Below are positions 6,380-62,965 of a stretch of DNA of 64,000 nucleotides, in pieces. The stretch comes from Periplaneta americana (taxonomy: Eukaryota; Arthropoda; Insecta; Blattodea; Blattidae). The stretch is from NCBI RefSeq assembly GCF_040183065.1, contig NC_091117.1, positions 113,683,001 to 113,747,000 on the forward strand. Reading direction: 5' to 3'. The notes beneath the pieces are model-generated. The model did no database searches and was not told the DNA's origin. It saw only the letters and a program-made list of their open reading frames with translations. Position 1 is the first letter of the stretch. Each line of letters starts with the position of its first letter. The position numbers and the translations under genes are program-made.

Positions 6380-6997
6380 GTGCGTTTTAAATTCTTGTCC
6401 TCATATCACAGCCTGGGTACTCGTTCTATTCTTTTTCTTTCACAGCATCAGCAATTCGTTTCTGGAACTCCTTACCCAGCTCCCTCAGGAACTGTCGAAC
6501 ATTTTTGCAATTTAAAAGTAAATTAGTCAAACACGTCACCGTACTAAGCCACATATCTCCTAGCTTCAGATTTAATTTTCCCGTTTCTTTATCCTATCAT
6601 GATTGTTGAATGCATTTTTATCATTGAAATTATAAATTTTCATTGTAATCCTACAAATTGTTAGTAATATTTTACTCACTATTTTCTGAAAATGTTTTCT
6701 TTTTTCCTCATTCATGTTTAATTCTCCTTTGTATGTATGTGTGTATATTATGTAATTTTTCTTAGTGTTGTATAGTTATAAACTTCTAAGCCTTACATTA
6801 TTTTGTAATTATAATTTAGTATGTTTGCATTATTTTACTTAACTTGTGCTTGTATGACTATATCAATTTTGTAGTGTTCTCCAAATATTAGTCTTAATTA
6901 TTAACTTGTATTACTGCAAATTGTATCAGCTTCTTTTGTTTCTGGCTAAGTGGAAGAGAGGGCTGATGGCCTTAACTTCGCCAGAATAAATATTATT
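6380..6997 (+). mobile_element. Jockey-like non-LTR retrotransposon, 3' end
   Basis: A short coding remnant (about 6400-6500) resembles the end of an ORF2 protein (HSISNSFLELLTQLPQEL, frameshifted). It is followed by a ~450-bp T-rich 3' UTR ending GGAAGAGAGGGCTGATGGCC ... AATAAATATTATTATTA, the ATT-repeat tail typical of many insect Jockey-like elements. The tail was later interrupted by the RTE copy at 6998-7921 and resumes as the ATT tract at 7922. Confidence 0.5.
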
Positions 6998-7921
6998 ATT
7001 ACTTACTTACTGGCTTTTAAGGAACCCGGAGGTTCATTGCCACCCTCACATAAGCCCGCCATTGGTCCCTATCCTGAGCAAGATTAATCCATTCTCTATC
7101 ATCATATCCCACCTCCCTCAAATCCATTTTAATATTATCTTCCCATCTACGTCTCGGCCTCCCTAAAGGTCTTTTTCCTCCGGCCTCCCAACTAACACTC
7201 TATATGCATTTCTGGATTTACCCATACGTGCTACATGCCCTGTCCATCTCAAACGTCTGGATTTAATATTCCTAATTATGTCAGGTGAAGAATACAATGT
7301 GTGCAGTTCTGTGTTGTGTAACTTTCTCCATTCTCCTGTAACTTCATCCCTCTTAGCCCCAAATATCTTCCTAAGCACCTTATTCTCAAAGGCCCTTAAC
7401 CTATGTTCCTCTCTCAAAGTGAGAGTCCAAGTTTCACAACCATACAGAACAACCAGTAATATAACTGTTTTATAAATTCTAACTTTCAGATTTTTCGACA
7501 GCAGACTGGATGATAAAAGTTTCTCAACCGAATAATAACAGGCATTTCCCATATTTATTCTGTGCTTAATTTCCTCCCGAGTATCATTTATATTTGTTAC
7601 TGTTGCTCCCAGATATTTGAACTTCTCCACCTCTTCAAAAGATAAATTTCCAATTTTTATATTTCCATTTCGTACAATATTCTCGTCATGAGACATGATC
7701 ATATACTTTGTCTTTTCGGGATTTACTTCCAAACCTATCTCTTTACTTGCTTCCAGTAAAATTCCCGTGTTTTCCCTAATCGTTTGTGGATCCATCTGGA
7801 GAAGTCCAAGTATATTTATGTATATCCTTATGGGGGAATGTTGTACTTTTAACAATTAAATTTTTTGATGTGGCAAAGTTGACTAACCTAACTCCATTGT
7901 CAGTACTAGATATGTGTAGGA
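6998..7921 (-). mobile_element. RTE-type retrotransposon, internally deleted copy
   Basis: The minus-strand 3' end has the GTAA tail and GGAACCCGGAGGTTC shared with the copies at 47471-47938 and 53888-55886. 7163-7800 codes the C-terminal part ([40 protein letters not shown]). Directly upstream, at 7790-7920, lies a piece of the endonuclease domain (DNGVRLVNFATSKNLIV ... YTWTSPDGS). Nearly all of the reverse transcriptase is therefore missing, including the YADD block. A frame change at the tip (PEEKDL) and the deletion make it dead. Confidence 0.8.
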
Positions 7922-20392: not shown

Positions 20393-21159
20393 TATAAACG
20401 GGAAGAACGAACAATGTCACAATTTAATTGAATATTTGTTGGAAATAGAATCAGGCATAATATTTTCAAACATTGTAGCACATGTTTAATTTCGTGTAGG
20501 GCATTCTTTTTAAAGGTTATAAATATTGTTGACCCATTATAAATATTTTTATCTTTGAGTGATCATTGTTCCAAACAATTATTGAAAAACAAATCTACAC
20601 ACTAATCTAATTGCACTGAATTTTCCATTGTGAGTGAATAATATATTGAACTATAAAATCGCCTCATTCACTGTTATGGACTTCTTGTGATTCGTCATTG
20701 GTGGGAGGAAGACTGAAATATTCTCTAGCAGTTGGAGAACAAACATTTTTTCAAAATTTGTAATTCCTTGCACTTTGCCTTGTAGCTGTTTACAGTTTAC
20801 AATGATGACTGGTTTGGTTTCCTCCTAGAATTCGCAATCTCTTGCCTCCAGTCATTGGGTACCTTGCTCTCTGATTAACAAGTCCCATGTTTTTGTCACA
20901 TTCCAGGTACGAGTGGCCTCGAGTGAGAAATGTGATCCACTGAGCATCAAACCTCTTCTTAGTATGTACTACATAGTGACAAAATCTAAATACCGTAAAG
21001 TTCCTATTTTGTCTGGAACAAGAATTGTAGAAGATACGGAATTCATCAACGCAGCTTGGTACAATATTCATACAGTGGTGCTATAACTTAGAGCAAACTC
21101 CATCAGAGCCTTTACTTTAAATATTTGGTCATACATGTCTTTCTGTTGACAGCGTATGT

Positions 21160-23931: not shown

Positions 23932-25466
23932 GCATATGTATGTTACAAGAATAAAAGGGCAGCTGTCGACGATAATAGCCCTCAATAGTTGGAACTGGTA
24001 ATTCTTTTGGAAATCCATGCAGATAACCTCTTTATACTCTGACTTCCTGGATTTTAGACATGCAGTCCGTTTTACTTCATAAAACTTCTGTCCTTTTCTC
24101 TTGTGCAATTCATTCTACAAAATCAAATTTTGTTTTTCCTTCTCAAAATTATCTAATTTACTTGCATCTTTTTCATTGGAAATTTCTGATTTAATGTGTG
24201 AAATGTCAGCTAATGTTGTATTTAGTGACAAAAATTACTCTGTATTGCTCGTAAGACACAGGGTTCGCAGGAAATTTTTCTAAGTGTAACTTAAGCAGCT
24301 TAGAAATATTCAAGTCCTCTGGAAGATACAACCTTCGGCTATCGTGACGAGATTAGTGGACTTTCTGACATCTAAGTGATTGAATGTGATGACAAATTTT
24401 AGATAAAATCTCTCCTTTCAGTTGGTGAGGCCTGTTTCCATGTTTAACTCTTGTTTCTGTATGGGCTTTTCCAGTAGTAGCCAATGACGTTTTCAAAGTG
24501 ACTAAATGTCTGCCTGTTATTCCATGTAGAGCAATAAAAATTTTTTAGCAAACGGGAACATCAGTATTTTGCCCATCTTTGTTTATTCGCATTTTATATC
24601 TGTAAGAAAAATTATGAAAATCAGCTTCGGCTTGTGTTTTTCTGGATCTTCTTCTTTGCACAGGAAGTACCGAAATTAGTCCTGAAAGGTGAGCATTTTG
24701 AGTGTCATGTGATACTAATTCATTGAAATGTTTAATAAGATCGCTTCTTTCACTTTTGGCTTATTTTCTGAAAACACGGAAAACGAGAACATTTACAGTC
24801 TTCTCCCATAATATGACTCATAGCACGAATTTTTTTTATGCATCTGTAACACGTCCTGTAACTTTTCTCTTCCTTGAATTTACAGAACATGGACTGGGTA
24901 CGGATAATTAATTTTCCCTAATGTCAGACATTATAAAAATAAACTGCACTAACCACAAACATTACAATATGTCATAAAAGTATAATAAAGGAAATAATCA
25001 ATACCCTACAACAGACATCTGAACACTGGAATAGTACAGCTGTTTGTATTATGCTCACAAGTTCTAATAAAAATTAATATAATTTATTGTCACATGGAAC
25101 AACAGCTAAACATCATACAGTCATTTAATAATATTATTATTGTATAATACAGATCGTATTGGCATATGTAAAAATAAACTAACCAGCAATGTGCTATGAC
25201 TCTAAGATCGAGTTTGTAACAGTGTCTGCATTAGTTTCTGTATTTAAAATGGATGTTGTTCGTTCTTTCTTGGGATGGGTGTGACATTGTTCATTCTTCC
25301 AAAGTATGCAGAAACTTTAACGCAGAATACTGAGGACAATTTTCGTTCTTACATAAAACCAATCCAGCCACATGAAAGTACTCCCCTTCTACTATCAGAT
25401 GGCACTATTAACTCAATTTCGATTTTTGATGGACCTTGTTCGTTATTCCCGTGTACCCTTCAAATG

Positions 25467-45510: not shown

Positions 45511-47046
45511 TTAAGTACAAGAAAAATTCGTACCGGCACCGGGAATCGAACCCAGGACCTCTTAGCTGTGCGCGCTGAGTGCTCTCTAACCAACTGAGCT
45601 ATGCCGGGACCCGATTCACGACGCCGGCCGAACTCCTCTCGTAGTATCGTGTTACGGCCTTACTGCCTGCACTTGAGACGATACACGTCATATATGTACA
45701 GGAGCGCATATTACATGACTTTATGGCCATATTCAACAACAGTTTCTTTAAACTGTTAACATCATATATGTATCAAATATGAATGAGGTCTCGCCCACCT
45801 CATTATACTTTGCTCGACTAGTATGACTAGTCAGTTTGTTTTTATACCATTAAGTACGAGAAAAATTCGTTGGTTAGAGAGCACTCAGCGCGCACAGCTG
45901 AGAGGTCCTGGGTTCGATTCCCGGTGCCGGTACGAATTTTTCTCGTACTTAATGGTATAAAAACAAACTGACTAGTCATACTAGTCGAGCAAAATATAAT
46001 GAGGTGGGCGAGACCTCATTCATATTTGATACATATATGATGTTAACAGTTTAAAGAAACTGTTGTTGAATATGGCCATAAAGTCGTGTAATATGCGCTC
46101 CTGTACATATATGACGTGTATCGTCTCAAGTGCAGGCAGTAAGGCCGTAACACGATACTACGAGAGGAGTTCGGCCGGCGTCGTGAATCGGGTCCCGGCA
46201 TAGCTCAGTTGGTTAGAGAGCACTCAGCGCGCACAGCTGAGAGGTCCTGGGTTCGATTCCCGGTGCCGGTACGAATTTTTCTCGTACTTAATGGTATAAA
46301 AACAAACTGACTAGTCATACTAGTCGAGCAAAATATAATGAGGTGGGCGAGACCTCATTCATATTTGATACATATATGATGTTAACAGTTTAAAGAAACT
46401 GTTGTTGAATATGGCCATAAAGTCGTGTAATATGCGCTCCTGTACATATATGACGTGTATTGTCTCAAGTGCAGGCAGTAAGCCCGTAACACGATACTAC
46501 GAGAGGAGTTCGGCCGGCGTCGTGAATCGGGTCCCGGCATAGCTCAGTTGGTTAGAGAGCACTCAGCGCGCACAGCTGAGAGGTCCTGGGTTCGATTCCC
46601 GGTGCCGGTACGAATTTTTCTCGTACTTAATGGTATAAAAACAAACTGACTAGTCATACTAGTCGAGCAAAATATAATGAGGTGGGCGAGACCTCATTCA
46701 TATTTGATACATATATGATGTTAACAGTTAAAGAAACTGTTGTTGAATATGGCCATAAACTCATGTAATATGCGCTCCTGTACATATATGACGTGTATCG
46801 TTTCAAGTGCATGCAGTAAGGCCGTAACACGATACTACGAGAGGAGTTCGGCCGGCGTCGTGAATCGGGTCCCGGCATAGCTCAGTTGGTTAGAGAGCAC
46901 TCAGCGCGCAAAGCTGAGAGGTCCTGGGTTCGATTCCCGGTGCCGGTACGAATTTTTCTCGTACTTAATGGTATAAAAACAAACTGAGTAGTCATACTAG
47001 TCGAGCAAAATGTAATGAGGTGGGCGAGACCTCATTCATATTTGAT
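45511..47046. repeat. Inverted + tandem array of a ~338-bp tRNA-like unit
   Basis: One unit on the minus strand (45511-45868) is joined at a short inner junction to about 3.5 direct units on the plus strand (45869-47046; period 339, then 338). Each unit carries a tRNA-like head, a palindrome ACTAGTCATACTAGT, hairpins AATGAGGTGGGCGAGACCTCATT-type and AACAGTTTAAAGAAACTGTT, and a GC-rich TTCGGCCGGCGTCGTGAATC segment. The array is flanked by the same 14 bases, ACAAAAAAAGTACA (45497-45510, 47047-47060). Units are nearly identical, so amplification is recent. Confidence 0.88.
46192..46270 (+). other. tRNA-like sequence (array unit), probably not a functional tRNA
   Basis: Starts GTCCCGGCATAGCTCAGTTG and ends GGTTCGATTCCCGGTGCCGG. 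CCGGCA pairs with TGCCGG as acceptor stem, TCAGC/GCTGA as anticodon stem and CTGGG/CCCGG as T stem. A- and B-boxes are perfect. The anticodon loop would be GCGCACA (GCA, Cys) but position 33 is C, not T, which argues against a working tRNA. Repeats at 46531-46609 and 46869-46947, partial at 45870-45931 and inverted at 45532-45610. Confidence 0.7.
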
Positions 47047-47470
47047 ACAAAAAAAGTACAGTATGTTCTCCCCTTCTAAACAGCAAAAGAACTCTTCTTT
47101 CCATTACACATAATATAGTCGTTTTTAACTCGTACACAATGATTTGATAAGCAAAGATTCCACTGATAAAATTAATGACTGTATAATCTGTCCACATCTA
47201 AGAGTTGGTTTGGTAAACAAGGGTCCGGGAGGAAAGGAAAGTAGTAATCATTGATGTCACACAGTGCGATAAGCGCTGTCCAGATCGGTTCGACACCAGT
47301 CCTCAAATGATGTACCATTGTCTACGGCTGATGACAGTATTTAACTACACAGAAATAGCTATGTTATGAAGTATGTAATATCTGCCTTATTTTGTATCAT
47401 TTAAGGTGCATGTTAGGCAAGTTAAGTTTTGTATTTCGGAAAAGATATTAATTTAAGTTTATGTTACCAA

Positions 47471-47938
47471 CAGTTATATTACCGGTTGTTCTTTATGGTT
47501 GTGAAACTTGGACTCTCACTTTGAGAGAGGAACATAGGTTAAGGGTATTTGAGAATAAGGTGCTTAGGAAAATATTTGGGGCTAAGAGGGATGAAGTTAC
47601 AGGAGAATGGAGAAAGTTACACAACACAGAACTGCAGGCATTGTATTCTTCACCTGACATAATTAGGAACATTAAATCCAGACGTTTGAGATGGGCAGGG
47701 CATGTAGCACGTATGGGCGTATCCAGAAATGCATATAGTGTTAGTTGGGAGTCCGGAGGAAAAAAGACCTTTGGGGAGGCCGAGACGTAGATGGAAAGAT
47801 AATATTAAAATGGATTTGAGAGAGTTGGGATATGATGGTACAGACTGGATTAATCTTGCTCGGGATAGGAACCAATGGCGGGCTTATGTGAGAGCGGAAA
47901 TGAACCTCCGGGTTCCTTAAAAGCCAGTAAGTAAATAA
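47471..47938 (+). mobile_element. RTE-type retrotransposon, 5'-truncated copy
   Basis: Same family as 6998-7921 and 53888-55886. Codes VVLYGCETWTLTLREEHRLR, KVLRKIFGAKRDEVTGEWRK and RLRWAGHVARMG, then after a frame break (about 47745) RPLGRPRRRWKDNI to the natural end RVP-stop and the GTAA tail. The 8-bp duplication GTTACCAA (47463-47470, 47939-47946) frames it. Confidence 0.88.
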
Positions 47939-53887: not shown

Positions 53888-55886
53888 GCATAGGTTATTA
53901 TGAAACTAAGAAAAAGAAACCGTGGTTTGATGAAGATTGTTGCATTGCAGTAGAAAGAAGGAAACAGGCAAAATTGAAATTCTTACAGGATCCAGTTGAG
54001 GAGAAGAGAGATAATTATTTCAATGAAAGACGGGAAGCTAGTCGTACACTTAGGAATAAAAAGAGAGGTTACTTGAAGGAAAAACTGAATGAGGTAGAAA
54101 CAAATAGTAAGAATAAAAACATTAGAGATTTATATAAAGGTATAAAGGAACTTAAGAACGGATATCAGCCAAGGGTAAACGTGATCAAGGATGAGAATGG
54201 TAACTTGCTTGCAGACTCTCCATCAGTCCTAAACTGATGGAAAAACTATTTTGCGCAACTACTAAATGTACATAGGCCAAATAGAAATGATCGGGATGAA
54301 ATTGAAATACAAACTGCTGAGCCATTTATACCCGAACCCACGCTTTCAGAAGTCGAAATTGCGATAGAAAATCTGAAAAAGTACAAGTCTCCAGGTATCG
54401 ATCAAATTCCAGCAGAATTAATACAAGAGGGTGGAAGTGCATTATATAGCGAAATTTATAAACTTGTACTTGCTATTTGGAAAAGGAAATTGTACCAGAA
54501 CAATGGAAGGAGTCCATAATTGTACCTATTTTTAAAAAGGGGGACAAAACCAACTGTGGTAACTTTCGAGGAATATCACTTTTGTTGACGTCGCACAAAA
54601 TTTTGTCCAATATTCTTTTGAGAAGATGAGCTCCGTACGTAGATGAAATTATTGGAGATCATCAGTGCGGTTTTAGGCGTAATAGATCGACTATTGATAA
54701 GATTTTTTGTATTCGACAGATAATGGAGAAAAAATGGGAGTATAAGGTACAGTACATCAGTTATTCATATATTTCAAAAAGGCGTATGACTCGGTTAAGA
54801 GGGAAGTATTATATGATATTCTTATTGAATTTGGTATTCCCAAGAAACTAGTTCGATTAATTAAAATGTGTCTCAGTGAAACATACAGCAGAGTCCGTAT
54901 AGGTCAGTTTCTATCTGATGCTTTTCCAATTCACTGCGGGCTAAAGCAGGGAGATGCACTATCACCTTTACTTTTTAACTTTGCTTTAGAATATGCCATT
55001 AGGAAAGTTCAGGATAACAGGCAGGGTTTGGAATTGAACGGGTTACATCAGCTTCTTGTCTATGCGGATGACGTGAATATGTTAGGAGAAAATCCACAAA
55101 CGATTAGGGAAAACACGGAAATTTTACTTGAAGCAAGTAAAGCGATCGGTTTGGAAGTAAATCCCGAAAAGACAAAGTATATGATTATGTCTCGTGACCA
55201 GAATATTGTACGAAATGAAAATATAAAAATTGGAGATTTATCCTTCGAAGAGGTGGAAAAATTCAAATATCTTGGAGCAACAGTAACAAATATAAATGAC
55301 AGTCGGGAGGAAATTAAACGCAGAATAAATATGGGAAATGCGTGTTATTATTCGGTTGAGAAGCTTTTGTCATCTAGTCTGCTGTAAAAAAATCTGAAAG
55401 TTAGAATTTATAAAACAGTTATATTACCAGTTGTTCTGTATGGTTGTGAAACTTGGACTCTCACTCTGAGAGAGGAACATAAGTTAAGGATGTTTGAGAA
55501 TAAGGTGCTTAGGAAAATATATGGGGCTAAGCGGGATGAAGTTACAGGAGAATGGAGAAAGTTACACAACGCAGAACTGCACGCATTGTATTCTTCACCT
55601 GACATAATTAGGAACATTAAATCCAGACGTTTGAGATGGGCAGGGCATGTAGCACGTATGGGCGAATCCAGAAATGCATATAGAGTGTTAGTTGGGAGAT
55701 CGGAGGGAAAAAGACCTTTGGGGAGGCCGAGACGTAGATGGGAGGATAATATTAAAATGGATTTGAGGGAGGTGGGATATGATGATAGAGACTGGATTAA
55801 TCTTGCACAGGATAGGGACCGATGGCGGTCTTATGTGAGGGCGGCAATGAACCTTCGGGTTCCTTAAAAGCCATTTGTAAGTAAGT
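53888..55886 (+). mobile_element. RTE-type retrotransposon, 5'-truncated long copy
   Basis: The 18-bp duplication AAGTAAGTCACTGTTATA (53870-53887, 55887-55904; partly merged with the GTAA tail). Reads through the linker after the endonuclease (KPWFDEDC region, TLRNKKRGYLKEKLNE, KGIKELKNGYQPRVN), then [67 protein letters not shown] and [11 protein letters not shown] (YADD intact). It ends with [41 protein letters not shown] and RPRRRWEDN to a natural stop. About six stops or frameshifts interrupt. Best-preserved RT of its family here. Confidence 0.92.
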
Positions 55887-56217
55887 AAGTAAGTCACTGT
55901 TATAATGTTGCAGAACTTCAACAACGATTCGTTTTTTTTTCTGGGAGGCTCTGGGGGAGGAATTTACCCCTAAAACCCGCTGCGTCAGTGTATAATATAA
56001 TATAATATAATAGTTGTATTAATAACGATAGCACTATTTAATGTTTTAGTCAGATTTCAATTGTTCCGTCTCCAATAATGAAGAGATAATAATTTGTAAC
56101 ATGTTAGAACAAATCGATCTATTTTATGACCATCATTTGCATCGTTTTCCTGTGATTTTATTTTGTATAATCCATGAGAAAGTTTTCTTGTCTCGATTAT
56201 ATCTATATATATACCAT

Positions 56218-56372: not shown

Positions 56373-58610
56373 CAGGGATGGATTTAGAGAGGGAGCTCTA
56401 TCCCCCCCCCCCCTTAAGCTGACTAAAATTTGTATGTTTCTATCTGTTTTATATGAAAATGGAGCCACCATCGGGGAAAAGACTTTTTAATGTAGGCCTA
56501 ATATATAATAACGGTATATTTTGTTGCTGTTACCCAGGCACCCTCCTATTGTAAAATTCTTAGCAAACTTTCTCGAATAAGGCAACTCTTCAATGTTTAT
56601 AATGGTATTTTTATTGCTGTTACGCAGGATCGACTCCTGTTGTAAATACGTCCTGTAATATTCTTAGCAAAGTTTTTCTGGCAAACCCTGCGTTACCGAA
56701 GGTCAGTTAACTGACCATATATTGTTGTCCATTGAGATCTAAAGGCTTCGACCGCGCGAAGCTGTCTGGCTATTCGTTACGGTATTTTATTACGTTGTTA
56801 AGAAATATTCGTATGCAGGAAAGGATTTAGCAGTAAGTTGGAGTTCTAGTGTGTGTATCGTAGTGAAAAAAGTCGTTAAATGTTTCATGTTTGGTTGTGA
56901 AAAATAATGTGAAAGTATGTTAAATTTAATTCAAATAAGAAGCTTAAATTAAGCAATCAGGCAACTATACATTCGTTATTTGATAGAGCTGCTCAAAAAC
57001 AGAACAGTGACAGTGTTAATCCAAATTATCCTAGTAGCGTAAATAGTGTTACCGGTAATAATCGAAAGAAAGTTGATCAATCTATTTCTGACGTTAATCA
57101 AGCAGAAAAAAAATTTGCCAAATTGTTCAGGGAGTGATAAAAGTGTACAGGCATCACATTTGAACATTTATACGGAACAAGTTCCAATTAATCTTGAACT
57201 AGATAGAGGCTGTTACGTTAAGGATGAATCAAATTCTGATAGTCTGAAATACCGTTTATTGTGAAACCCTTGGACACCAGATTCAAAGTATGAATTTCCT
57301 ATGCAATATAATAACGGGCACAATAGAAAATTTCAATTGAAATGGATGAAGGTTAGCCCGTAACTAGCTTATAGTGCTAAAGATATTGATGCAAACTGTC
57401 CATTCTGTGTATTATTCGACAGAAGGGAGTAGAGGTGACCACAATCTTGGAGTTTTTCACTAAAACCATTCAATCGGTACAAAAATGCAATACAAGAGTT
57501 CAACAACCATTCTGCGCGCCAGTATCAAAAAATGGCTCTTCTCAAAGCTAATAGTTTTAAGGAAATAATGGAAGGAAAGTGTGAAAATGTATCTGTCCAA
57601 GTCGACAGTCATTTGAAGAAACTAATAGAACAAAAGAGACAGCGGTTAGTTCCAATCGTAGAAATTGTTCTTTTGTGCAACCGTCAAAATATTCCTCTCA
57701 GGGGTCACAAGGACGACGGAAAAATCCTACTAGATTCAAGCACGGTATCTGAAAGGGAAGCAAATTTTTGCGCCCTTCTTAGGTAATGAGTCAGTGGTGG
57801 TGATACGATATAGAAAGAACATTTATAAACAGCTCCCAAAAATGCAACCCTTATCAGTAAAACAACTTAAAATATCTAATTGAATGTTTCGGAGAGTTAA
57901 TACTCAGAAAACTGTAGATCGTATAAAAAGTGGTCAGTATTTTACAATATTAGCGGATGAGACAACTGACGAAAGTACCTGCGAGCAATTAACATTGTGC
58001 ATTAGGTATTTAGATATGCAAAGTAATACGTAAGGGAAGATTTGTAGGATTTGTAAATGTCAATGATCTAACAGAAGAAGGACTGACAAATATCATGCTA
58101 ACCATGCGCAGTAATATTGGCTTATCAGTTCAAGGCTTACGAGGGCAAATCTATGATAGAGGGGCCAATATAGCAGCAAAATATCGCGGTGTGCACGCAC
58201 AAATTATCATGTTGCAACTATTAGCAATCTATAGTCGCTGTGCTAATCACTGTCTAAAACTAACTATAGCAAAGGCCTGCAATGTTCAAGAAATAAAAAA
58301 TATTTTCGGGACAATAAAATAAATGTATAAATTCACCCGGGAATCTGCAAAACGAATTACTTTGCTGGAAGCAAAAATTAAAAAACATTTCCCTGAATCT
58401 AAAGTAAAACAACTCAAACCACTATGTGAGACCCACTGGGTGGAGAGACATGATTGCGTGTTGATTTTCCATGATATTGTGGGCTTGCAAGGAAAAGTAT
58501 TAAGTCCAAAAAGATAGTTTGAGATAAATCAACTTGAAAGTTTGAATGTTTATGAAAAATCTGGTTTTGAATTTAAACTCATTTACTCCTTGTTGTTAAA
58601 TAATATATGT
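56373..58610 (+). mobile_element. hAT transposon relic (P52rIPK/ZMYM1-type), right end missing
   Basis: Left terminus CAGGGATGGATTTAGAG (56373) is of the same style as the hAT at 21160. Coding blocks: TTF-type finger (NRKFQLKWM ... CPFCVLFDRRE, 57325-57425); SARQYQKMALLKANSF (57515); VEIVLLCNRQNIPLRGHKDDG (57657) to NFCALL; a block near 57950 with LADETTDESTCEQLTLCIRY, which carries the first Asp; GLRGQIYDRGANIAAKYRG (58132), CANHCLKLTI; LCETHWVERHDCVLIF (58420). The C-terminal dimerization domain is absent. The DUF7869 element starts at 58611. Stops at 57265, 57787 and elsewhere. Confidence 0.85.
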
Positions 58611-61133
58611 CTGTACCTGAGAGCTAGAGTGACGCAAGTCACAAAACAATAATTGTACAGGAGAGCCTAAAAACAAAAAAATTCTCATATTTTTGTTGTT
58701 TTTGCGCTCTTATTCGTTTCTTATGAATCTCATATTTATGTTGTATAGGCTACTACTTATTCTTTACATGATCAACACCTTTTATTTTCCATCGGTTTGT
58801 TACAATGGAATTAAATGGACTTGCGTTATTTTAGCTCTAAATATAAGTAATACTTTCTGGACTTACATTTTATTATTCACATACAAAATAGTCATATTTT
58901 AAATTCTTCTTCATGTATCAAAATACAAATAACAGTAATAGACATTCAAATTCAGTCTTATGGGTTTCACTTAGGTTACACTTATTTTTTATGTCTTACA
59001 CACGTATAGTAGCTGTTACAAGTGACAGAAACCTCATGTTATATTAATAAGGCTATTTTAATTAACAATATACCCAACACTATCTAAACCTTAAAGCTAT
59101 CAAAAACAAAATGTTATTTAAATTATATGTGATGTAATAGCCATTTTAATTGTACATTAATAAAACAGTGAAATTAAAGAAATACAAACTGTATAGGTTT
59201 CAAAGTCCACTTGAACTGTTCTTCAGTACGGGAAGTCTTCTTCTCCTTGAGCATGTGGCAAGTCCCTCAAGTACGCTTTACATTCCTCTGGAATCCACTG
59301 CACAAGAATCATCAAATCTCTGTATTTTATTGTGCCAATTTTCTTTTTGAAAATCCTCAATTGTGGAAGTTCAATTATGGGGGATTCTAATAGTTTCCTT
59401 GTATTTCATCTCAAATGTACTGATTGAAAGTTTCCTCCAAATTCGATTTTGTAGAAAAGGATTCCATCAGAATTTTTCGTAACTGAAGCCACACTGCTGA
59501 GGAAATTAAAAATGCTTTATTCTGAGAGTTTTGTTCCTAGAAATAAGCGGAGTGGAAGTGGAATTCATCAATGAGTGGAAATTATTAAAATTCTTCAACT
59601 GAATTCTCTTCACAATAAAAGGTGACTTGTTATATTTAAATATAAAGTTCGCCCAGTCATTGCATGTGAATATAGACATACCTGAAAGTCTCTTCTTTGA
59701 CCTTCCAAGTATACTGTGGTCTCCATCGACCTCCATGTGAGTATGACCTCCCATGAGAAATTTATGGTTAATTTCTTTCTGACTACTATTCTTGTTAAGG
59801 AGCCACATTTACATCATTACCATAATTAAATTTCTGTTTTGCCCTGGACAATTATCGGTCCAAACAGTTAAGACTTCTGTTTCATTATATTTTATGCTTC
59901 CATTTGCCCAGACTAAGAAACAAGACGCCATTTCATTTCCACCTCGCCCTCCAGTCACTTCATTCCATAGCATACACCAAGACTTTCCTGAAATTGGGCC
60001 ATGTACTGTATAGTTTAGTGTCCATAGTTTTCTGAGGTAAAAACTTTGTGAAATTGTGAGGTATGGAGTGAGCAAGCACTTTTGCAGATCAGCCATTATA
60101 ACTATGTGTTTGTCATTGTTTTTTTTTTGCAGTTTCCTTATCCACCTTTTTCAAGCAGTACCTCATATTTCCCTCTTCCATATGCATATCTTGTTTTTTC
60201 TTTTATGGATTTAATCTCTTCTTCTGTTGAAGCATCATGCAACTGTATACAGTAACGATCGCATGTATCAAATGTATCAACATCTGGTTGGTGGAAATCT
60301 AAATTGAAATCTTCATTAAAGATACGCCTAAATAGCCATTACTTCGCTTCTTTAACTCCGGAAGCTTTACATTCATCAAGTAAAGTGCATACATTTTAGA
60401 TAACTTATGTTAAGATGACTGCCCAAATATTTTTTCTTTGTTCGTTCTCGACTATAATGGCTTTCATAAGAGAGATATATTCTGATGTGGGCTTTTATTT
60501 GCTCAATAATGCAATCAGGGGTTTTACTAAATGAAGAGTGCCTGCCACGTTTATCAGGTTTTACCATTCCAACTTCCGAAGTTTTCACCAATGCTACTCT
60601 CATAAAGGATTCTGAGATGGCTAAAGTATTCAGAAAGAATGTCTTACATACTATTCTTTTGCAGTTTCTATTGTAAAAGAATACACATTACTTTGTGTCC
60701 TCACATTTGCCCTTGTTGAGTTCCTTGGTCTGCTCCGTTGTACTGGTTTATTCGTGACACATGATATAAATTGACGTTTTGAATCCCAGGACCTGTTTTC
60801 ACTCCAATATTCCTTATGAATTTGATTTCGCATAGTTTCAGTTATGCGTTATGTACATTTTAGCCAAAACCTAAGAGCTAAAATAGCTTATGTGGACTTA
60901 CATTTGCTCCCTTTAAAAATTATTAGAGCCAAATAGTAGTAAGTGGACTTACTTCAATTTGGTTCTAAAGTGAGTTGGACTTGCATCATTGTAATCTTGT
61001 TTATTTCGTTTATTACTATTATTAGAGACTTGTTGCATTGTGGCACTCATGCATCGCAATAAGAGCACTTCAAATGTGTAATAATATCATTTTCAAAAAA
61101 GTGGACTTACGCCACTCTGGCTCTCAGGTACAG
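58611..61133 (-). mobile_element. DUF7869-type TIR DNA transposon (copy 3), complete
   Basis: 2523 bp. Left end CTGTACCTGAGAGCTAGAGT and right end CTGTACCTGAGAGCCAGAGT (inverted); about 27 of the first 30 bases match. ATGT flanks both ends (58607-58610, 61134-61137). Subterminal copies of TGGACTTAC/TGGACTTGC, often near a TAGAGC-AAAT word, occur at 58815, 58858, 60892, 60943 and 60975, and within the right TIR at 61101. The only gene inside is the DUF7869-type frame on the minus strand. Confidence 0.85.
59506..60833 (-). pseudogene. DUF7869-type transposase-like gene (copy 3)
   Basis: Minus strand, N to C. SWDSKRQFISCVTNKPVQRS and VYSFTIETAKE (60833-60651); VCKMLFLNTLAISESFMRVAL; GMVKPDKRGRHSSFSKTPDC and YESHYSRERTKKKYLGSHLN (60603-60376). 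After breaks comes a D-x-C-containing stretch near 60250. Then SGKSWCMLWNEVTGGRGGNE with ASCFL, VLTVWTDNCPGQNRNLIMVM (59900-59809) and KFLMGGHTHMEVDGDHSILG (59750-59680). DNCPGQNRN and E-x-DGDHSI-x-G look like acidic catalytic blocks of an RNase-H-like fold, which is inference. About five frame breaks disable it. Confidence 0.82.
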
Positions 61134-61295
61134 ATGTATTAGGCTACATATTAACATATTTTGCAGATTGAATTATGATTTTAACACAGCTAGGGCTGGA
61201 TTGAATGAAACTATATATATTCACAGATTTTAAATTTCATGATATAAAGAGTGCGTTAAATGATCGATCTTTTTAGAGGCTAAATCACAAGCTTC

Positions 61296-62010
61296 CTAAG
61301 AGTCATCTCTCGAATTATCACTTATCATTTTCACTCTCATCCACAGCAGGTACTGGAACCTTGTCAACTGCAGTGTCACATGTTGGCAGAGTGTTGTACC
61401 AGCCAAGTATCCAGAAATGATACTTGCTCGAGAGACGTTTAGAAGATTTATCTTCTTTGCTGTGCTTATTGGCAAAGAATTTGAGTATTCTACTAGCGGT
61501 TGTTTTGGACAAACAAATGGTCGTGTCTCTTCACGAATTTTGATTACTCTATATTCATCAGAACAGCCACACTTATATTGCACAACCCAAGATGTTTCTT
61601 TCGTGTAATTGAAAGACTTTACTTTGAGCCAATTAACAACATCACCATTCTCATCTTTGGATTTATTTTTCACAAACATTGTTGCCACCTGCTGTAGGTT
61701 GAAGTATTTCTTTCAGAGAGAAGTTCATAGTTCACGAACAATTTTCTTCTGAAAACACTGTGTACCAGAAGCAAGGCAATTCTGACGGCTTCGAAACACA
61801 AAGGAGGAGGAATCGTAAAAACAGTATCCTTCGTCAAGATTCTTATGATTCCTCCTACTTCTGGAGTGCTGCTGATGACTCAATGAAGAATAAAGTCTTT
61901 CTGTCTTCCAATAGGTTGAACAAACCTCCTTTCGCCGCTCTTCAGAAATTTTTTCAGTGCACGTAAATCCACACAAGTTACACTTTAGAGGTTTTAGAAA
62001 TTTTAGCATC
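61296..62010 (-). pseudogene. DUF7869-type relic (copy 2), N- and C-terminal pieces only
   Basis: 62009-61725: KPLKCNLCGFTCTEKISEER with RKEVCSTYWKTERLY, the N-terminal Cys-containing KCTEKI-x-EERR block of the family. 61688-61296: ENGDVVNWLKVKSFNYTKET and YSNSLPISTAKKINLL, a C-terminal block (Y-x-x-x-LPIS-x-x-K-x-x-DLL). The middle, with the GQNRN region, is missing. It may be an internally deleted derivative lying next to copy 3. Confidence 0.6.
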
Positions 62011-62965
62011 TTGTGATTTCTTTATTTTATGTCAAGCCATCCCTACATTAATTTTTTTCACATTGGGTTTCCATTAAATTTGTTTGGATTTCCTTTTCTC
62101 CATCTACTACTACTGTTTTGAGTTGGTTCCCAAGGTGCCGCACATTTGTCATTGTCTTCTGAATACTCAGAGTTAGGATGGTAATGAGAATCTAAATCTG
62201 CAAAATCACTTCCGAAACATTACCAATTTCCTCCAACATATCTCGTTCACTTATGACTGATGAGGTTCCTGCTGGTAAATGATCATTTTATTTATTGCAT
62301 CCTGAATAATAAATTTTGTTATAATAAATTACAACATCATGTTTATTCTAGATTATATATATATTATTTAATTTATTTCGCCTATCTGCAGTTCCACTCA
62401 TTCAAGACGAGTAATTCCATACTTTTGGTTACACCCTTCTCACAGTTCTATTGTCAGATCATATAGAATTTAATTTACTATCGAACATTTGTAATAATGA
62501 GATGATGATATTAGTTTTTCATGTTTTATATTTTGATTTTGTTGAATACTACATTATTTCAGTTGTATATTACTTGTAAATTGCAATTCAAGAATCTTTA
62601 CGACACCTGTTTTGTTCGATTTATTTATTAAGTGCCTAACTAGTTTGTTCTTGTATACTTATATTTAAGACACTCCATGTAGTATACAATATATAGATAT
62701 TGATTCTAGTTCACACCTGGTGTTACTTCCGTACAGGCAAAACATGAAAGGAATTGAAAAGCCATGGATTGATGACTTGTTTTGCTCAATTTGAAGATGT
62801 CTCGTCTTGGCAGTATATGTGACGCGCATACGATGAAAAAAATATAGGACGACGTGTATAGATATTATGTATTGAAAAACTTGTGACTATTGGTGGCAGG
62901 AAGTCCACTATTGCATAAACCTGTCAAGAGAGGAATTTTGTTTTCTCTAATGTTAACCTTAAAAT
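62011..62965. other. No gene recognized
   Basis: AT-rich; no feature seen. Confidence 0.4.

Follow-up and report, generated by a model that had tools for sequence, protein, structure and literature searches.

What is the DUF7869-type gene at 58611-61133 in this 64-kb stretch of the Periplaneta americana genome: a host gene, or part of a mobile element and, if so, of which kind? The stretch, hereafter the window (64,000 nucleotides, G000:C1:113683001-113747000 of a 3.23-Gb genome), had been read in a first-pass annotation as carrying here a complete DUF7869 gene packaged as a DNA transposon with terminal inverted repeats (TIRs) and a 4-bp target-site duplication (TSD). Our results point to a family of cut-and-paste DNA transposons with a DUF7869 transposase, most likely belonging to the Sola group Sola2; we put the probability of this overall reading at about 0.85. 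The reported completeness of the gene was not borne out.

Element boundaries, copies and empty sites

The ends of the element in the window comprise the following features.

58607..58610, no strand: left TSD, ATGT; a single ATGT (4/6) or CTGT (2/6) at the unoccupied paralogous sites read
58611..58640, plus strand: left TIR, beginning CTGTACCTGAGAGC; genomic copies start at the same base
58816..58866, plus strand: left subterminal repeats, TGGACTTGC at 58816-58824 and TGGACTTAC at 58858-58866
60893..61110, plus strand: right subterminal repeats TGGACTTRC at 60893-60901, 60944-60952, 60976-60984 and 61102-61110
61104..61133, minus strand: right TIR; genomic copies end at the same base
61134..61137, no strand: right TSD, ATGT

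The inverted ends, proposed earlier to be about 30 bp long, are identical at 27 of 30 positions and enclose an element of 2.5 kb, in which (58611-61133) no second gene was seen; CTGTACCTGAGAGC occurs without mismatch at both ends and nowhere else in the window, and ATGT is present at both flanks, as first described. The subterminal repeats noted near both ends proved to be a property of the family: all six TGGACTTRC sites of the window fall inside the element (0.79 expected; none of 100 shuffles reached six), and the repeat recurs at 3-6 sites, on the plus strand only, in 16/16 near-full-length genomic copies. TGGACTTGC and TGGACTTAC are probable transposase-binding sites.

Copies elsewhere in the genome begin and end at the TIRs, with at least 54 matches in a DNA search with the element having ends that coincide with them (40 of 64 candidates scored). 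Our copy set comprises 36 loci, including L018 and L035, which are opposite ends of one long copy, and excluding the duplicates L037-L043; 25 of the 36 are two-ended. The flanking 4-mers are identical at 20 of these 25 loci, with none identical at 3 or 5 bp, as compared with a mean of 2.4 and a maximum of 11 identical 4-mers in 20,000 shuffled flank pairings. Two-ended loci with unequal 4-mers are L010 and L016, where three of the four bases are alike, and L020, L024 and L033. The duplicated 4-mers differ among copies (AAAT four times, AATT and ATTT three times each, ATAT and AACT twice each, and six more once each), with 12/20 exact duplications conforming to AWWT and 16/20 to ANNT. Over all end 4-mers, A occupies position 1 in 55/61 and T position 4 in 55/61; AWWT is a preference, not a rule. 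The 16 near-full-length members of 2.5 kb share 92.1-98.0% pairwise identity (mean 94.4), and a two-ended long copy measures 7.3 kb and also contains an unrelated open frame.

The window copy is inserted in a high-copy repeat (flanks at about 58450-58610 and 61138-61297). With 40 scored of 115 candidates, the joined flanks gave at least 41 matches at 87-93% identity, all across the joint. Six of these were fetched, and all six lack the element and hold a single 4-mer. Uninterrupted paralogous sites were likewise found for L003 at six places, with ATAT, for L008 at one (AACT) and for L017 at one (TAAT); for L002, 8/8 fetched sites are uninterrupted, with AAAC in five and another 4-mer in three, versus AAAT at L002 itself. 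Matches for L012 were left out of the count because they are too diverged (74-79% identity). The element boundaries, its mobility and the 4-bp duplication are established by these observations, and that the element is a mobile DNA transposon with a 4-bp TSD, as claimed at first, is virtually certain. Three of the L003 sites lie in the window (6992-7154, 47783-47938 and 55730-55888), in a repeat that reads as a putative retroelement tail.

The gene relic and the predicted DUF7869 fold

The coding part of the element was aligned to the relatives P0021 (780 amino acids, Homalodisca vitripennis) and P0024, as follows.

59229..60863, minus strand: relic of the DUF7869 transposase gene, five pieces aligned to P0024
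60863-60666: P0024 residues 180-246
60666-60397: P0024 residues 247-336
60380-60189: P0024 residues 341-404
60135-59536: P0024 residues 421-620
59465-59229: P0024 residues 645-721
60866..60868, no strand: approximate joint of an internal deletion; matches to long copies are interrupted at position 2255/2257 of the element

A complete gene is ruled out by four frame changes between the five segments, which are in order and 42-66% identical to P0021 / P0024, by in-frame stops (e.g. 59811-59809, minus strand), by the absent 5' part and by a longest open stretch of 293 amino acids in the 16 near-full-length copies. No intact copy of the window family was found among 58 scored of 8,133 candidates, the copies showing stops or partial coverage. 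With respect to P0021, residues from about 225 to 770 are represented and earlier ones are absent, the element starting inside the gene. The long copies (L018 with L044/L045; L021) keep the N-terminal part, including a CxxxCxxxC cluster, past position about 2257 of the element, near 60867 in the window; the 2.5-kb subfamily is therefore an internally deleted, non-autonomous derivative from which the N-terminal (5') part of the gene has been removed.

Both blocks taken at first as diagnostic of DUF7869, DNCPGQNRN and GHTHMEVDGDH, are encoded on the minus strand of the element. The window piece 59506-59808, a 100-amino-acid fragment, matches the Pfam model PF25273 (DUF7869) weakly and slightly below threshold (E 1.9e-5, 24.8 bits; curated cut-off 26), and the open frame of the sister copy L007 reaches 44.9 bits, above the cut-off, as do five relatives at 33-52.9 bits. 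The relic piece 59536-60135 (minus strand) is 60% identical to P0021, from a leafhopper, and 66% to P0024; judged from sequence, such similarity across insect orders might reflect horizontal transfer.

The further proposal of an RNase-H-fold transposase agrees with the predicted models of two DUF7869 relatives, which have an RNase-H-like b1-b2-b3-a-b4-a-b5-a core with three acids. These acids are conserved in the aligned DUF7869 proteins (D374 in 213/213, D452 in 211/212, D495 in 212/212), and the third Asp lies close to the start of helix aC in the two models. A DDE triad with E493 of GHTHMEVD was considered, as this residue is invariant in 64 relatives; it was replaced by D495 because E is present in only 101/213 proteins once divergent families are added. 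The triad is assigned by conservation, and E502 may be an alternative. As regards Ginger, whose transposase is Gypsy-integrase-like, integrase-core Pfam models are absent from the matches of the five relatives (E up to 1), whereas structure comparison does list integrases; a sequence search of the PDB with query A1 gave one match at E 0.29, which is not meaningful. Identity in alignments with Tc1/mariner transposases and retroviral integrases is 6-18%. We regard it as highly probable that DUF7869 is a DDD RNase-H transposase, and the domain, for which Pfam gives no function, is very probably its DNA-cutting core. None of the three findings that would have told against the first reading emerged: the ends are common to the copies, each copy has its own duplicated 4-mer, and the fold is predicted to be RNase-H-like.

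A mechanism can be proposed on this basis. The Cys-rich and helical N-terminal region of the transposase would be DNA-binding, recognizing the TGGACTTRC repeats near the ends as well as the 30-bp TIRs; the RNase-H domain with its Asp-Asp-Asp triad would excise the element and join it, chiefly at A-N-N-T, to target DNA cut with a 4-bp stagger, a chemistry suggested by the predicted fold and residue conservation. Host gap repair would then leave the 4-bp duplication, which was observed together with the empty sites. The window copy, a decayed member of the non-autonomous 2.5-kb subfamily, was presumably mobilized in trans by full-length relatives.

Other DUF7869 families and superfamily placement

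The PF25273 model gave 2,969 first-look candidates in the genome, all 150 of those scored being above the cut-off, and none in 14 control genomes. Named relatives come from many insects and one spider, and most of those listed carry PF25273 (e.g. 18/20 in one listing). Locus L066 encodes a protein with 100% identity to the 502-amino-acid ANN_21708 of P. americana. Core identity between families in this genome is 25-33%.

Long open frames were also read at four more loci, and inverted repeats surround the frame in L065, L066 and L068; no TIR pair was found around the 513-amino-acid frame of L067, which was not used for TSDs. Flanks in the L065 family are identical at 4 bp in 3/4 pairs, the fourth being ACAT/ACGT, in the L066 family in 2/2 and in the L068 family in 5/8 read pairs (one more copy was unreadable), with none identical at 3 or 5 bp in any of them. 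The unequal pairs of the L068 family are ATTG/ATTT, ATAT/ATGT and CAGG/AATT, L068 itself having TTTT/ATTT. The identical pairs are A..T 4-mers and are often palindromic; weight is therefore carried by the non-palindromic duplications, AAAT in the L065 and L066 families and ATTT in the L068 family. In the L066 family, the left end (L066 2290-2394) is matched over about 105 bp at about 35 places, seven of which were read, with AATT; these matches are probably a family of miniature inverted-repeat transposable elements with ends GAAGACTT and, having been selected by best match, were not counted as TSD evidence.

Stop-free DUF7869 frames of 590 amino acids (G000:C15:151625389-151627101, C2:167118760-167120472 and C5:106056654-106058366) and of 697 amino acids (C5:77531156-77532901) mark their families as candidates for recent activity. 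Relics of other DUF7869 families lie in the window at 1584-2101, 20779-21047 and 24001-24667, all on the minus strand (tblastn E 2e-5 to 3e-22).

As to superfamily, the account of Sola in PMC10741241 gives a DDD transposase, a 4-bp TSD, TIRs of 11-1124 bp and sizes mostly of 2-9 kb, ranges that include the 30-bp TIR and 2.5-kb length found here, and PMC3627910 describes the TSDs of Sola2 as AT-rich, AWWT. Sola2 membership is likely, given that a DDD triad and AT-rich duplications of the AWWT type have both been published for Sola/Sola2, and DUF7869 is likely a Sola2-type catalytic domain; the element itself is probably of the Sola2 type, a placement made by these published features. A GAGGG start, which may be typical of Sola2 ends, was given no weight. 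The Sola2 examples presented in PMC3627910 are amoebozoan, carry Fanzor genes and have TIRs of 12-21 bp, unlike the present insect elements. The 2-bp TA duplication stated for Tc1/mariner (PMC10741241) differs from the 4 bp seen here; piggyBac and Kolobok share the 4-bp length (PMC9587614) but duplicate TTAA, which is found in 0/20 exact duplications.

Of the two affiliations first suggested, a Sola relative or an unnamed group, the triad and the AT-rich 4-bp TSDs favor the former. That the DUF7869 elements form a separate, unnamed DDD superfamily, merely sharing with Sola2 a 4-bp A..T target preference, is the best surviving alternative, though an unlikely one. It would accord with terminal sequences that differ between DUF7869 families and with the openly licensed literature searched, in which DUF7869 is not named; on P. 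americana transposable elements together with Sola, this literature yielded nothing. The separate-superfamily reading would also accord with the A2-derived pattern matches in prokaryote (29) and viral (15) contigs, none of which was confirmed as a relative, though Sola is reported in PMC10741241 to occur in bacteria too. The two published features fit Sola, however, as do the TIR length and element size. We consider it similarly doubtful that DUF7869 proteins are the transposases of a large unrecognized DDD superfamily related to, yet distinct from, Sola1-3.

Less probable still is a place in Sola but outside Sola2, in Sola1, Sola3 or a new group; a DDD transposase with a 4-bp TSD is attributed to the whole of Sola (PMC10741241), but it is for Sola2 that AT-rich duplications of the form AWWT are described (PMC3627910). 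A DUF7869 host gene that happens to lie between repeats, which the database labels of relatives ('uncharacterized' or 'DUF7869 domain-containing') might suggest, is refuted by the empty sites, to which dispersed copies with common ends and TSDs add, and its probability is negligible.

On our reading, a domain listed as of unknown function would gain a role as the catalytic domain of a transposase, with its residues named and with empty sites and a target duplication on record. If this is correct, entries labeled 'DUF7869 domain-containing protein' would often be transposon relics or transposases rather than host genes, and misread entries would bear on gene counts of large insect genomes. The stop-free frames of up to 697 amino acids in other families make activity directly testable. 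A DUF7869 group distinct from Sola2 would, if true, be the most interesting outcome.

Further features of the window

In the left flank of the element, open reading frames at 58095-58517 resemble, as we presume, a hAT-type transposase. The right flank at 61299-62021 (minus strand) contains open pieces with Cys-rich N-terminal-like and C-terminal-like parts; it was considered as a second DUF7869 gene and rejected, no collected relative matching it at 1e-4. At 45869-47049 a 339-bp unit is present in 3.5 repeats with 98% matches, and includes GGTTCGATTCCCGG, which we take to resemble a tRNA B box, the array perhaps being a tRNA-related tandem.
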